From Candidatus Mcinerneyibacteriota bacterium (GTDB lineage: Bacteria; AUK180; JAQVHJ01): a stretch of 6,724 nucleotides of DNA. Below are positions 232 to 6,019 of this stretch, one piece after another. The notes beneath the pieces were generated by a model. The model was not told where the DNA came from. It was given only the letters and a program-made list of their open reading frames with translations, and ran no database searches. The translations under genes and the position numbers were made by a program. The stretch covers positions 1-6,724 of the forward strand of contig DAOVMD010000168.1 in the NCBI GenBank assembly GCA_030630935.1. Reading direction: 5' to 3'. How positions within the stretch are numbered: position 1 is the first letter of the stretch; each line of letters begins with the position of its first letter.

Positions 232-1215
232 ATGGCAAAAAAACTTATAACAGATACCAAAAGAGGGATATTAACTTTAAAGCGATTAATCAAAGCTTAT
301 AATGATAAGAAATTTTTCAACTTGGTAAAATTACCTGAAGAAATTCTTCCTGAAAATCTTGAGAAGGGAACTAATGCACATCTTCTTTTTTTAACATTAG
401 TATCTTCAATTGGTTATTTACGAAAAGAGGAGTTGCTCTGGAATGCAGCAAGGGAGACTTATGAAGATGATGATCTGCGATATTTATTCTTCCCTGATCA
501 GATATTGAATCATCCTTTGGAAAAGATAGAACATGATTTGAAAGAATGGAGTCTTTTATTAAGTTTAAAGTCTATTAAGAACGATAAGATAAAGTTCAAA
601 TCAGTTGACCGGAGAACGATTAAGGAGAATGATCTTGCAATCTGGATTAATATGTCCAACTTACTCAAGACTTATGATTCCAGTGTGGTAAAGTTATTAG
701 AAGCTTATGATATGGATGCTCTTAAAATAATTGATGTGTTTACACAAGTACCTTTAGAAAATTGTTTTCCTAATTATCAGAAGAAGGAAAAAATCATAAT
801 CTGGTTATTACGTCTTAAGGAAGATGAAAGTTTGCCAATTATAAATTTTGACAAGATTCCAATGCCTGTAAATTATCATGTAATTCGAGCAACTTGTTTT
901 TCCGGTTCAGTAACTGGGATTGCCAATTCAATCGAAAGTGATATACCAAAGTTAATTGCAGAATATTGGTTTGAAATGGTAGAAGATAAAGATTATGATC
1001 TTAATTTGAATCCTATTGAATTTGAGAGGTATCTCTGGTTGCTTTCCAAATACGGATGCTCCAAAGGAAGACAGGGTTACAATTGCAGCTTTACAAAAGA
1101 CTGCCCTGTTGGAGATTTTTGTTCAAGAGGTGAGATAAAAATTCTCAATACATATATGACAATTGATATAGTTCAAAGCAAAATTAAAGAAAACTCTTTA
1201 GAAGAAGATGAATAA
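232..1215 (+). CDS. Diverged HhH-GPD (endonuclease III-like) protein with a four-Cys probable Fe-S motif
   Basis: 327 aa, soluble, with no signal peptide or membrane segment. I cannot name the family with certainty. Seen: residues 212-219 read PVNYHVIR, aligning with AVDTHIFR of endonuclease III, where the Asp is catalytic; here it is Asn214. About 50 residues later comes LWLLSKYG-C276-x8-C285-x5-C291-x5-C297. This matches in position and flanking residues the endonuclease III [4Fe-4S] loop (C-x6-C-x2-C-x5-C), but with different spacing. No LPGVGxKTA-type helix-hairpin-helix or catalytic Lys is recognisable; the corresponding stretch is PNYQKKEKIII (180-190) and on to 210. The N-terminal 130 residues match nothing I know. 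Inference: a DNA-binding or damage-recognising relative of HhH-GPD glycosylases, probably without classical lyase activity. The start is fixed by AGGA at 221-224, 7 nt upstream. It is divergent from dinB and its last 8 nt overlap the kinase gene, implying co-expression. Confidence 0.5.
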   Translation: MAKKLITDTKRGILTLKRLIKAYNDKKFFNLVKLPEEILPENLEKGTNAHLLFLTLVSSIGYLRKEELLWNAARETYEDDDLRYLFFPDQILNHPLEKIEHDLKEWSLLLSLKSIKNDKIKFKSVDRRTIKENDLAIWINMSNLLKTYDSSVVKLLEAYDMDALKIIDVFTQVPLENCFPNYQKKEKIIIWLLRLKEDESLPIINFDKIPMPVNYHVIRATCFSGSVTGIANSIESDIPKLIAEYWFEMVEDKDYDLNLNPIEFERYLWLLSKYGCSKGRQGYNCSFTKDCPVGDFCSRGEIKILNTYMTIDIVQSKIKENSLEEDE

Positions 1216-4200
1216 AATGGGAAAAAGGGGAATACTTAACGCTAATTTTATAAAAGACTACAAAGCAATAGTTGACTGCTTAGAAGATAACATTGCAATC
1301 TTTAGTATCCCTGACGGAAAGCTGGTATATTATAACAAACCAGCAAGAAACTTTTTTGGATATTCCATTAAGGAAGCGCAGAAAAAATATTTCTATGACT
1401 TTGTACATAAGGATTATATCAAACTTGTTAAAAAACTTTTTAAGGAGAGGCTCAAGGGTAATAAATCAAGCATGCGTTATATGGTGAAGGTTTTAACAAA
1501 GAAACGCGGTTATGTATTTGCTGAAATATCTTCACACGCTTATCTTGTTAATAATAAAATAATGGGAGTAGAAATTGTATTTCGTGATATTTCAAAAAGG
1601 GTTTATCTCTCTGAACAATTAATTGAACAAAAAAACATTTATAAAATATTCTTTAATACAATTAATCTGCCATTCCTGGTTTTTAATAAAGATTTACTTC
1701 TTCTTAAATGTAATACTAAAGCATATAAGTTTTTCAATATTAACAAGGGTCTTATTCTTCCATCAAAATTAAAGATTAAGGAGCTGATCTCCAAGGGCAG
1801 CTTTAAAAACTTACAAAAACTTTTAAATAAAGCCAGAAGGAGAAAGAATTTTAATACCATATTAGAAATCACCCCATTTGCAAAACCTGTTGAAATTTGT
1901 GATGTAACAATCAACCTATTGCCGGGAACAGGTACTTACATTGCATCTTTTCATAAAATAACAGAAGAGGTACATCTTCAGAATTTATTAAAGCAATCAG
2001 AATTTAAGTATCAGTTTTTAACTGAAAATTCCAATGATATTATATTACTATTGAATGCAAAGAAAACTATTGTACATGTTAATAAGCAGATTAAGCGTTA
2101 TCTCGGAATATCTCCTAAAGAATTACTCGGCAAGAATTTTTTGCATTTAATAGAGAAACAATCCAAACGTAAAGTAAAGGCTCTCTTTGAAATCAAAGAT
2201 TTCAAGAAGAATAGAGAATTAACGATAAAACTAAGAACCCAAAGCGGGTTGATAAAATATTTTAATTTATTAATCAATCCGATAATTTCAAAAGAAGGAC
2301 CTATACAATTCCATATTACACTGAGAGATGTTACAGAGCATATAAGAGATGAGAAGGAGAAAAAATTAATTCATAAACTCTCACAAAAGATATTTCTTGC
2401 AGATGATTTTAATTCAATTTTAAAATTAATTTCATCGACTTTAATTGAATTAAATAATTCGATTGTCCTAATTGAAAAGATTGATTGTAAGAATTCAATA
2501 AATAAGTTCATTGAAATAAACTATGATAACCTGGATAATTTATATGATCTTCATAAAGGTTTTATTAATGAATCCACCTTTAATGAGTATCTAAAAAATT
2601 ATTTAAATGATTTAGTTTCAAAAGATCATAATAAATATTTCTTAAAGACAATGCTAAAGATATGTAAACAGAATAGAAATAAAAACAAAAAGAAATTTAA
2701 ACCACCAGAAGTTATATTCAATATTGATTCAAAAACCTTTCTTAAATTTGAGCCTAAACATCAAACTTTCTTCAAAATTGAAAATGTTCAGAATTTCTAT
2801 TCAATTCTGATAAGGAACAAGGATGATAAAGTAATTGCTCAGTTGTCTTTATTACGAAGAGGTGATAAACCTGATTTCAGCAGTAACGAAATACAAATGT
2901 TTAGAATAATCTGTGATACTATTGGAATTGCAATCGAAAGGGATGAAGTAATGAAGAAAATTTCTTTTTCGGAAAAGAAATTCCATTCAGTCTTCTCAAA
3001 AGCAAATAATATGATTTTAATCACAAAACCGAATGGCGAAATTATTAATATAAATAGGAAAGCAATTAATGAATTGGGTATGGGTAATGTAAATTTATGT
3101 GAAGCAAATTTCTTTACATTTTTCTCTAAGAAGCAGCTTATAGAAATTCGGGAGATTTCAAATGATTTTACAAAACCAATCAATAAACTTGAAATCACAT
3201 TAAAAACTTTGGGGAACAATGATATAATAACTTTATTTAATTCAGTACCCATAGATTTAGACGGCAGTAAAATCCTGATTTTTATCTTGCGAAATGTAAC
3301 AAAAGAACGGAAAAAGGATCAGGACATACTTAGTTATGCAATGGAACTCAGAAATAAAAATCTTGAATTAATTGCCCTTGATAAAGTGAAAGATGATTTC
3401 CTGGCAAACTTTTCTCATGAGTTTAGAACTCCGCTGTCATCTATACTTGGTTACATGACATTTATTTCTGACAAAAAACTCGGTGATATTAATGAAAATC
3501 AGAAAAAAGCTTTGGATGTATGTATTCGTAATCTTGTTCGTTTAAATAAAATGCTCGATAAATTATTGGATCTTTCCCGAATAAAAGGTGATTATTCATA
3601 TGCATTCGAGAAAATTGATCTTTTCCAAGTCTTAAAAGAGAACCTTGATTTCATTAGGCCTGAAGCAGAAAAAAATAAAGTAATACTTACGCACAAGATT
3701 CCAAAGGGACCTTTCTTCACTTTGGGAGATAAGAATTCATTGACACAAGTATTTATAAATCTTCTTTCAAACGCAATTAAATTCAGTCAAATAAAGGGAA
3801 AGGTTTCAATTAATGTTAAGAAATTAAAGGAAAAAGTTCATGTTAGTATAAAAGATAATGGGATTGGGATTCCTGCTGATATGTTAGATTTTATTTTCCA
3901 TAGATTCTTTCAGGTCAAGGGTTCTCACTCAAAAAAAACCGGGGGACTTGGAATTGGCCTTTCAATAGTAAAAGATATTTTATTGAAACATAATATTAAA
4001 ATTAAGGTAAAGAGTAAAGCAAAGGAAGGAACTGAATTCATCCTCACATTTCCACAATATGAAACCAGGGTTATTAAATCTAATGAAAAAGCTGCATTAA
4101 ACTTTTCTCCTCAACAAAAAAAGAAATTACACGGTAAATCAATATTAATTGTCGATATAAAAAAAGAAACTGAACTATTTTTGAAGAAATTATTTAAAGA

Positions 4201-4498
4201 TATCAAAATTAAATTGTATTTTTCAAAAAATGGTAAGGACACATTTGATCTATTAAAAAAAGAAAAAATCGACTTGATGTTTATTGATTTCATTCTTGAA
4301 GATTGCAATGCAATTGAATTACTTCAGGCGGTTAATAAAAATAAATCAATAAAAAATACTTCAATTTATGTTTTCTCACCAATAAATATTCCTAATATTC
4401 AGCAGGAAGCATTGAAGCTTGGAGCAAAGGCTGTTCTCCAGAAACCCGTATCAATGAAACATCTTATGGATATCTTAAAAACCAAATTTAATTTATAA
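1208..4498 (+). CDS. Soluble multi-sensor hybrid histidine kinase (PAS x4, GAF, HisKA, HATPase_c, receiver)
   Basis: 1096 aa, with no transmembrane segment, so a cytoplasmic sensor. Domains in order: PAS 18-131 (ends VFRDISKR), a more diverged PAS 143-258, PAS 266-380 (ends LRDVTEHIR), a GAF-like domain about 385-582, PAS 588-702 (ends LRNVTKER), then a helical linker. HisKA carries the H-box FSHEFRTPL with phospho-accepting His737. HATPase_c has an N box around N851/N855, G1 DNGIGI (883-888), an F box near 896-901 and G2 GGLGIGL (912-918). All look catalytically intact. The C-terminal receiver (about 976-1093) keeps phospho-acceptor Asp1027, Ser1057 and Lys1079. The usual acidic pair is D983-I984, so one metal-binding acid is missing. 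Ligands of the sensor domains cannot be read from sequence. The ATG at 1208 overlaps the preceding stop (ATGAATAA), suggesting translational coupling; ATG 1217 is an alternative and neither has a strong SD. No separate output regulator follows, so the downstream partner is unknown. Confidence 0.93.
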   Translation: MNKMGKRGILNANFIKDYKAIVDCLEDNIAIFSIPDGKLVYYNKPARNFFGYSIKEAQKKYFYDFVHKDYIKLVKKLFKERLKGNKSSMRYMVKVLTKKRGYVFAEISSHAYLVNNKIMGVEIVFRDISKRVYLSEQLIEQKNIYKIFFNTINLPFLVFNKDLLLLKCNTKAYKFFNINKGLILPSKLKIKELISKGSFKNLQKLLNKARRRKNFNTILEITPFAKPVEICDVTINLLPGTGTYIASFHKITEEVHLQNLLKQSEFKYQFLTENSNDIILLLNAKKTIVHVNKQIKRYLGISPKELLGKNFLHLIEKQSKRKVKALFEIKDFKKNRELTIKLRTQSGLIKYFNLLINPIISKEGPIQFHITLRDVTEHIRDEKEKKLIHKLSQKIFLADDFNSILKLISSTLIELNNSIVLIEKIDCKNSINKFIEINYDNLDNLYDLHKGFINESTFNEYLKNYLNDLVSKDHNKYFLKTMLKICKQNRNKNKKKFKPPEVIFNIDSKTFLKFEPKHQTFFKIENVQNFYSILIRNKDDKVIAQLSLLRRGDKPDFSSNEIQMFRIICDTIGIAIERDEVMKKISFSEKKFHSVFSKANNMILITKPNGEIININRKAINELGMGNVNLCEANFFTFFSKKQLIEIREISNDFTKPINKLEITLKTLGNNDIITLFNSVPIDLDGSKILIFILRNVTKERKKDQDILSYAMELRNKNLELIALDKVKDDFLANFSHEFRTPLSSILGYMTFISDKKLGDINENQKKALDVCIRNLVRLNKMLDKLLDLSRIKGDYSYAFEKIDLFQVLKENLDFIRPEAEKNKVILTHKIPKGPFFTLGDKNSLTQVFINLLSNAIKFSQIKGKVSINVKKLKEKVHVSIKDNGIGIPADMLDFIFHRFFQVKGSHSKKTGGLGIGLSIVKDILLKHNIKIKVKSKAKEGTEFILTFPQYETRVIKSNEKAALNFSPQQKKKLHGKSILIVDIKKETELFLKKLFKDIKIKLYFSKNGKDTFDLLKKEKIDLMFIDFILEDCNAIELLQAVNKNKSIKNTSIYVFSPINIPNIQQEALKLGAKAVLQKPVSMKHLMDILKTKFNL

Positions 4499-4999: not shown

Positions 5000-5965
5000 T
5001 TATAGAGCTAACACTCTAATGATTTCCAAGATTTCCAGATCAATTTTTTTTGGTCTTTTTAAAACTTTCTCAAGTGGTGTGGTAATATAATTATTCCCTT
5101 TGATTCCTGTCATAACTCCGGTCTTACCTTCGAGTAAACTCTCAACTGCAATACAGCCAAAACAAGTTGAAAGAATCCTATCAAATGCACTTGGTGACCC
5201 GCCTCTCTGCACATGACCAAGAACCGTTTCTCTGATTTCCCAACTAATCTTCTGTTCAAGATATCTCTTTACTTCATGAGCTTTTGCCGCACCTTCTGCA
5301 ACTACGATAATTGTATTAGTCTTTCCCATTCGCTTTCGTTTTTTAATAAGATTCAAGGTCTCTTTATAATCAAGTTTAATCTCAGGAATTAAAACAATAT
5401 CTGCACCTGCAGCTAACCCTGTCATTAATGCAATATACCCCGAATTGCGGCCCATCACCTCAATAATGAATAGTCTGTCATGTGATGAAGCGGTATCTTT
5501 AATCTTATCAATTGACTCCATAACGGTATTTAAACACGTATCTACTCCGATTGACATGTGTGTGTATGCAATATCATTATCAATTGTACTTGGAATACCA
5601 ATTACCCTTATCCCCATTGATGAGAGCTCTTTTGCACCACGTAATGAACCATCCCCTCCAATTATTACCAGGGCTTCAATCTTATGCTTTTTTAAATTTG
5701 ATACTGCCTTCTTCATGCCGTGTTTGGTTTTAAATTCCAAAGAACGTGCAGTCTGCAAAACCGTCCCGCCGATATGTAATATCCCCCCAACATGCTTCGT
5801 GGTCATTTTAAATATCTCATTATCAATCATCCCTTGATATCCGCTCTGAATCCCAAATACCTCAATACCATTTGAGATACCCTCTCTAACAACTGCTCTA
5901 ACCGCAGCATTCATCCCCGGGGAATCTCCTCCACTCGTTAATACACCAATTCTCTTGATTTTCAT
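5000..5965 (-). CDS. pfkA: 6-phosphofructokinase, ATP-dependent type
   Basis: Phosphorylates fructose 6-phosphate to fructose 1,6-bisphosphate, the committed step of glycolysis, in the cytoplasm as a tetramer (family knowledge). With the start at 5965 the protein is 321 aa, against 320 in E. coli PfkA, and aligns throughout. Motifs: SGGDSPGMNA (11-20), GGDGS (103-107), PSTIDND (125-131) with catalytic Asp129, MGR (171-173) for substrate binding, and QRGGSP (253-258). Gly106 is the residue typical of ATP enzymes; pyrophosphate-dependent enzymes have Asp. Ser126 replaces the Gly usual in ATP enzymes (Lys in PPi enzymes), a mild oddity. R23 and R27, equivalents of effector-site/interface arginines R21 and R25, are present. 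Start choice: AGGAG (5977-5973) is 7 nt from this ATG and 4 nt from the adjacent ATG at 5968. An upstream in-frame ATG at 6019 lies within the -35 box and cannot be transcribed from this promoter. Monocistronic and convergent with the kinase operon. Confidence 0.97.
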   Translation of the reverse strand: MKIKRIGVLTSGGDSPGMNAAVRAVVREGISNGIEVFGIQSGYQGMIDNEIFKMTTKHVGGILHIGGTVLQTARSLEFKTKHGMKKAVSNLKKHKIEALVIIGGDGSLRGAKELSSMGIRVIGIPSTIDNDIAYTHMSIGVDTCLNTVMESIDKIKDTASSHDRLFIIEVMGRNSGYIALMTGLAAGADIVLIPEIKLDYKETLNLIKKRKRMGKTNTIIVVAEGAAKAHEVKRYLEQKISWEIRETVLGHVQRGGSPSAFDRILSTCFGCIAVESLLEGKTGVMTGIKGNNYITTPLEKVLKRPKKIDLEILEIIRVLAL

Positions 5966-5990
5966 CATTGTTCTCCTAAGTTTGACTTTG

Positions 5991-6019
5991 ATTATACAAT
6001 ATTTTCCTTTTCTTTTCAA
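5991..6019 (-). promoter_or_regulatory. Sigma-70 type promoter of pfkA
   Basis: On the minus strand, -35 TTGAAA (6019-6014), a 17-nt spacer and -10 TATAAT (5996-5991) predict a start near 5983-5985. That leaves a leader of about 18-20 nt that includes the SD AGGAG at 5977-5973. The promoter supports the 5965 start codon over longer versions of the gene. Confidence 0.78.

Follow-up and report, generated by a model that had tools for sequence, protein, structure and literature searches.

HhH-GPD glycosylases are the textbook example of chemistry that depends on a lysine and an aspartate. Endonuclease III carries the PF00730 domain, the motif LPGVGxKTA, the aspartate and the cysteine spacing C-x6-C-x2-C-x5-C. 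In AGOG (PF09171) the base is stacked upon by Trp222/W212, the substitutions D172N or D172Q abolish the activity of Pae-AGOG, and in Pab-AGOG the residue that follows the catalytic lysine, Thr143, is a phosphate contact (PMC9638937). Sis-HhH-GPD from Saccharolobus islandicus, a protein of the Fe-S type with Ser152 at the position of the aspartate, is an active alkylbase glycosylase that works through Glu134 in its HhH motif (PMC11754123). DrEndoIII3 from Deinococcus radiodurans retains the fold and the cluster, has no detectable activity and binds damaged DNA with high affinity (PMC9268735). No paper came up when the literature was searched for HhH glycosylases that are pseudoenzymes.

The window analysed here is a stretch of 6,724 nt from a bacterial genome (3.16 Mb assembly, 80% complete). 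It contains an ORF with the sequence AGGA 7 nt 5' of its ATG, and the features of this ORF that bear on the comparison are the following.

232-1215, + strand: window-copy ORF, 327 aa, predicted HhH-GPD-fold protein without the catalytic Lys and Asp (ORF reading, paralogue alignment, AF2 model)
427-429, + strand: Glu66, invariant in 12/12 window-family copies, Ala or Ser in 27/27 relatives (alignment)
766-804, + strand: residues 179-191 (FPNYQKKEKIIIW), corresponding to the HhH hairpin (alignment, AF2 model)
865-888, + strand: PVNYHVIR, from Pro212, counterpart of the GPD-loop Asp segment, with Asn214 replacing Asp (alignment)
1036-1038, + strand: Trp269, at the aligned position of Trp222, which stacks on the base in Pae-AGOG; invariant in the 39/39 proteins compared (alignment)
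1057-1122, + strand: Cys276, Cys285, Cys291 and Cys297, probable [4Fe-4S] cluster loop (alignment; weak profile match to the endonuclease III cluster loop)

Taken alone, the window protein gave no sequence match in Pfam, NCBIfam or PDB, and scanning 84,980 species genomes with this single sequence found no relative. A protein search detected at least seven copies in the window genome and six copies, one of them a fragment, in the sister genus, which is represented by the sole other genome of the taxonomic family; five further genomes from the same class yielded none. Across the two genera, the 12 full-length copies align from end to end at about 40% identity and share approximately 36 invariant columns. 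In the tree they group as a single clade (100/100) in which orthologues from the two genera pair up, so the expansion is older than the split between the two genera. Codon comparison gave dN values of 0.15–0.45, far below a saturated dS, which indicates that the copies are under purifying selection. Only a profile built from the paralogues reached further relatives, which occur as single copies in several other bacterial lineages among the sampled genomes; 27 of these were read, and the two groups matched each other in hhalign with an E value of 1.1e-52. Since no homologues were found in viral contigs, plasmids or phages, an origin from mobile elements is unsupported.

The earlier note on this DNA had read PVNYHVIR as the catalytic segment with Asn214 in place of aspartate, and had proposed that homologues be aligned to see whether residue 214 is usually Asp. 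The reading was exact (codon AAT, 871-873). The aspartate is present in 27/27 relatives, within a PVDVH segment, and in one of the 12 full window-family copies, the others having Gly (nine), Asn (one) or Ser (one). Glycine is thus usual in the family and asparagine is a variant of the window copy itself. Similar results were obtained for the hairpin, where the note's statement that the lysine is absent proved right for the whole family: the lysine of the G-x-K motif is found in 27/27 relatives and in 0/12 family copies. The position that aligns with the relatives' catalytic lysine is occupied by Arg in nine copies and by Met, Thr and Glu in one each, the glutamate being Glu186 (787-789) of the window copy only. 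The lack of LPGVGxKTA is real in the window protein but is not distinctive, because relatives with the complete active site also lack LPGVG, most of them having FPxLSGxK or FPxLRGPK instead; of these two features, only the loss of lysine separates the window family from its relatives.

Two charged residues are specific to the family. Besides Glu66, Lys187 (790-792) is invariant in 12/12 copies and present in 0/27 relatives, which have Ile or Leu there. We considered whether Lys187 could be the old lysine displaced by a gap and rejected this; the spacing from Pro180 to Trp191 is identical in the relatives, and Lys187 therefore occupies the Ile/Leu slot that follows the old lysine. Because the aspartate and the lysine occur in all relatives, we infer that the ancestor carried both and that they were lost later, the tree being unrooted. 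This family-wide loss, together with the gain of Glu66 and Lys187, supports the earlier suggestion of a repurposed protein or a new subfamily.

The resemblance to AGOG (Pae-AGOG, 1xqo, and Pab-AGOG) extends beyond the fold. Both groups have a PxPVD/G..HVxRaT segment, a base-stacking tryptophan (W222/W212 in AGOG) and a non-canonical HhH. The window family differs in having no counterpart of Lys140 (K140/K142) or Asp172 (D172/D174), in its acidic charge, in having no Pfam match of its own and in its C-terminal four-Cys loop, which the solved AGOGs lack. AGOG residues were mapped through profile alignments that are weak but consistent near the Asp and the Trp; the Lys was placed by gapless spacing. 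An 8-oxoguanine specificity was considered and is unsupported: by gapless counting, Leu193 stands at the position of AGOG Lys147. Fpg/MutM (PF01149) gave no match in the five genomes G000, G006, G164, G303 and G355, two of which are incomplete, so excision of 8-oxoguanine would probably be carried out there by other enzymes.

The four cysteines were described earlier with the spacing C-x8-C-x5-C-x5-C, and the codon positions (Cys276, 1057-1059; Cys285, 1084-1086; Cys291, 1102-1104; Cys297, 1120-1122) give exactly this spacing. All four are invariant in the 12 full copies of both genera, with the spacing C-x8(to x10)-C-x5-C-x5-C, and they are also present in the thirteenth copy, the fragment. 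Judged from this conservation, the loop probably holds a [4Fe-4S] cluster. In the relatives the second cysteine is often missing. Fourteen members of the relatives' family f12 (L083-L097) that have an intact Lys/Asp pair carry Arg in its place and keep the other three cysteines, and the cluster type or ligand may be different in these proteins. The relatives of the G218 lineage (L030 and L111-L114) have a C-terminal C-x2-C ... C-x2-C arrangement instead of the four-Cys loop.

The window protein was modelled with AF2 (pLDDT 82.9, pTM 0.82). The model adopts the HhH-GPD fold, as the earlier note had expected, and in VIA-align/Foldseek comparisons of this predicted structure HhH-GPD structures filled the matches, with Z scores of 10–17. 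Neither of the two outcomes that the note had named as counting against it, an unrelated fold or cysteines not conserved in homologues, arose, since the predicted fold is HhH-GPD and the cysteines are conserved. Its label "endonuclease III-like" was imprecise: in sequence the closest curated family is AGOG, reached through the relatives, in fold the closest solved structures are those of QNG1, and the window genome encodes a separate canonical Nth. Endonuclease III (Z 12.9) and MutY (Z 11.7) resemble the window protein in fold and in having four cysteines in a loop at the corresponding end, whereas the PF00730 match, LPGVGxKTA, the Asp and the canonical cysteine spacing of endonuclease III are all absent from it. 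In the window model the second HhH helix starts at residue 184. Counted from the invariant Trp, this is three residues earlier than in the model of the relative L027 (pLDDT 93.6), consistent with a remodelled hairpin.

A loss of basic charge accompanies the loss of the catalytic residues. The median pI of the window family is 6.15 versus 8.94 for the relatives, and the controls from the same genome have a pI of 9.77 (its own Nth) and 9.32 (a second HhH protein). This argues that the family has lost general affinity for DNA, and a specific ligand, a nucleotide, RNA or a protein partner would therefore be favoured over routine scanning of DNA. The second HhH protein (L002, 1294-2070, minus strand) is a basic protein of 259 aa with the Asp and a C-terminal Cys cluster; its PF00730 score of 23.2 bits is below the cut-off.

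We favour, with a probability of about 0.5, the explanation that the window family is a neofunctionalised, probably [4Fe-4S]-containing, AGOG/QNG1-like protein that binds, protects or signals and is not a bifunctional glycosylase. Such a history suggests an old repair enzyme turned to a new use. Profile homology and the shape of the tree point to an AGOG-like bacterial glycosylase bearing Lys and Asp as the ancestor, with the direction of change inferred, from which a lineage-specific expansion of an Fe-S-type HhH-GPD protein would have arisen. The scaffold, the base-stacking Trp and the four-Cys loop were retained, while the nucleophilic Lys and the activating Asp disappeared from almost every copy and the invariant Glu66 and Lys187 were gained. 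The usual Schiff-base glycosylase/AP-lyase reaction should no longer be possible, because the nucleophile is gone and because the D172N or D172Q substitution abolishes Pae-AGOG activity (PMC9638937). The old pocket would most likely grip a flipped base, a damaged site or a free nucleotide instead. Judging only from the conserved, tight gene order described below, the downstream histidine kinase is the probable partner of the window copy. DrEndoIII3 offers a precedent, by analogy, for an Fe-S binder of damaged DNA with an intact fold and no detectable activity; like the window protein it is one of several paralogues, but it keeps the Lys and Asp and belongs to the endonuclease III sequence family. 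Several observations stand against a binder. The invariant charged pair Glu66/Lys187 might just as well form a new active site, the acidic pI argues against tight non-specific binding to DNA, and by the analogy of Sis-HhH-GPD (PMC11754123) the Asp is dispensable in some HhH-GPD glycosylases. The partnership with the kinase is opposed by the six of the seven copies that have no kinase neighbour. A selected, multi-copy family that has lost Lys and Asp and kept the Trp and the Cys loop would in any case be a natural experiment on non-catalytic roles of the scaffold and the cluster.

The same charged pair is the starting point for a tentative alternative, a DNA glycosylase with re-sited catalysis in which Glu66 and Lys187 stand in for Asp and Lys and a labile (e.g. 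alkylated) base is removed through monofunctional or atypical lyase chemistry. Strict family-specific conservation of the two residues (12/12 copies, 0/27 relatives) and strong purifying selection speak for it, as does the divergent DNA polymerase IV-like gene beside the window copy. Sis-HhH-GPD, which is active with Ser at the Asp position, a Cys loop and a Glu in the HhH, is a likeness of the same kind, given that the window family also has a non-Asp residue there (PMC11754123). However, the Glu of Sis-HhH-GPD occupies the HhH Lys position, where only the window copy has Glu and most copies have Arg, so that a counterpart of Glu134 is not conserved in the family. Lys187 may only bind phosphate, because Thr143 of Pab-AGOG, which likewise follows the catalytic lysine, does so (PMC9638937). 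A median pI of 6.15 would also be unusual for a DNA glycosylase. A more inclusive proposal, that of a re-sited glycosylase or base-sensor class on the AGOG/QNG1 branch with Glu66/Lys187 in place of Lys/Asp, nucleotide or lesion sensing, and one kinase-coupled copy beside a regulated Pol IV-like gene, appears unlikely.

The structural comparison brings in a further alternative, namely that the protein is a glycosidase of nucleotides or tRNA-derived nucleotides, or a non-catalytic binding version of one, related to the queuosine-5'-phosphate N-glycosylase QNG1 (DUF2419, PF10343). Among the chains compared, QNG1 was the best match of the window model (Z 17.1, rmsd 4.0, 253 residues), ahead of endonuclease III, MutY and AGOG (Z 11.3), and the L027 model gave the same ranking (QNG1 18.7, EndoIII 15.3, MutY 14.0, AGOG 13.7). 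QNG1 also shares with the window protein an LW motif near the C-terminus, and the low pI fits a small-molecule ligand. The sequence profiles, in contrast, barely match: the similarity to true QNG1 was 7.5% for the window family and 70.5% for the relatives. At that 70.5% profile match the relatives' Asp aligns with QNG1 Asp231, and 11/12 window-family copies are without it. PF10343 had no match in the window protein or anywhere in the window genome, and TGT was not found in this genome (G000), which is 80% complete. The bacterial QNG1 proteins compared here are without the four-Cys loop of the window family. Proteins of the PF10343 (QNG1-like) type with four C-terminal cysteines do occur (L074, 1360-2430, with the motif C-x4-C-x2-C-x5-C; L076, 689-1663; L077, 1378-2349), and their sequences may weakly bridge QNG1 and the Fe-S glycosylases (hhalign 74.6%). 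On balance we consider the relationship to QNG1 function quite unlikely.

The wider group formed by the window family and its relatives lies between AGOG, nearest by sequence through the relatives, and QNG1, nearest by predicted fold, since the window and L027 models share their ranking and two relatives pass the AGOG cut-off (L026 41.5 and L027 35.8 bits; cut-off 26.1). None of the 12 copies, the window protein included, had a PF09171 match at E<=10, and none had a PF00730 match. With a group lying between the DNA glycosylases and a tRNA-base salvage enzyme, the origin of QNG1 becomes testable.

The genes and signals around the ORF are the following.

1208-4498, + strand: PAS/HisKA/HATPase/receiver hybrid histidine kinase, 1096 aa, several PAS domains (domain matches)
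1-93, − strand: start (31 codons) of a divergently oriented DNA polymerase IV (dinB)-like gene, truncated where the contig ends (PDB match E 1.5e-4; Pfam IMS below the cut-off)
141-112, − strand: consensus sigma-70 promoter of the dinB-like gene, TTGACA-18-TATAAT
118-133, + strand: perfect 6+4+6 inverted repeat CTATAC-ATTA-GTATAG, between the hexamers of this promoter

The 327-aa ORF and the kinase gene overlap by 8 nt or, with the next ATG taken as the kinase start, lie 1 nt apart; in the sister genome (G006:C290, L060) their order is unchanged and 13 nt separate them. The kinase is apparently translationally coupled to the ORF. This arrangement and the four invariant cysteines are what favour a role as an Fe-S sensor of redox state or damage, signalling to the PAS histidine kinase of its own operon. 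Yet the other copies adjoin unrelated genes and the kinase has PAS sensors of its own, and we regard this explanation as distinctly improbable; for damage or redox sensing, the kinase adjacency in both genera and the divergent Pol IV-like gene are circumstantial. Since the neighbours of the other copies are unrelated and two pairs of copies stand in tandem, gene context defines no common function. From its position, the repeat at 118-133 is a possible damage-response operator. It was not found before other family copies and its core is unenriched genome-wide (41 sites versus 50 for the control), and we claim no regulon for it.

Decay into functionless paralogues, for which one could cite the loss of both catalytic residues as degeneration and the variability of position 214 (Gly, Asn, Ser, Asp), is rejected as very improbable, given about 36 invariant columns at about 40% identity, a dN far below the saturated dS and ortholog pairs maintained across genera.

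PADLOC reported nothing for the window protein or the kinase. Near two other copies, at a distance of a few kb, we observed a nucleotidyltransferase/HEPN-like pair (L058, 1740-2706) and an AbiEii-like gene (L053, 8528-9448); such defence-type neighbours are not common to the family copies. A 6-phosphofructokinase gene (5000-6019, minus strand; PF00365, 377 bits) lies beyond the kinase in the window and also in the sister genome (L060, 941-1768).
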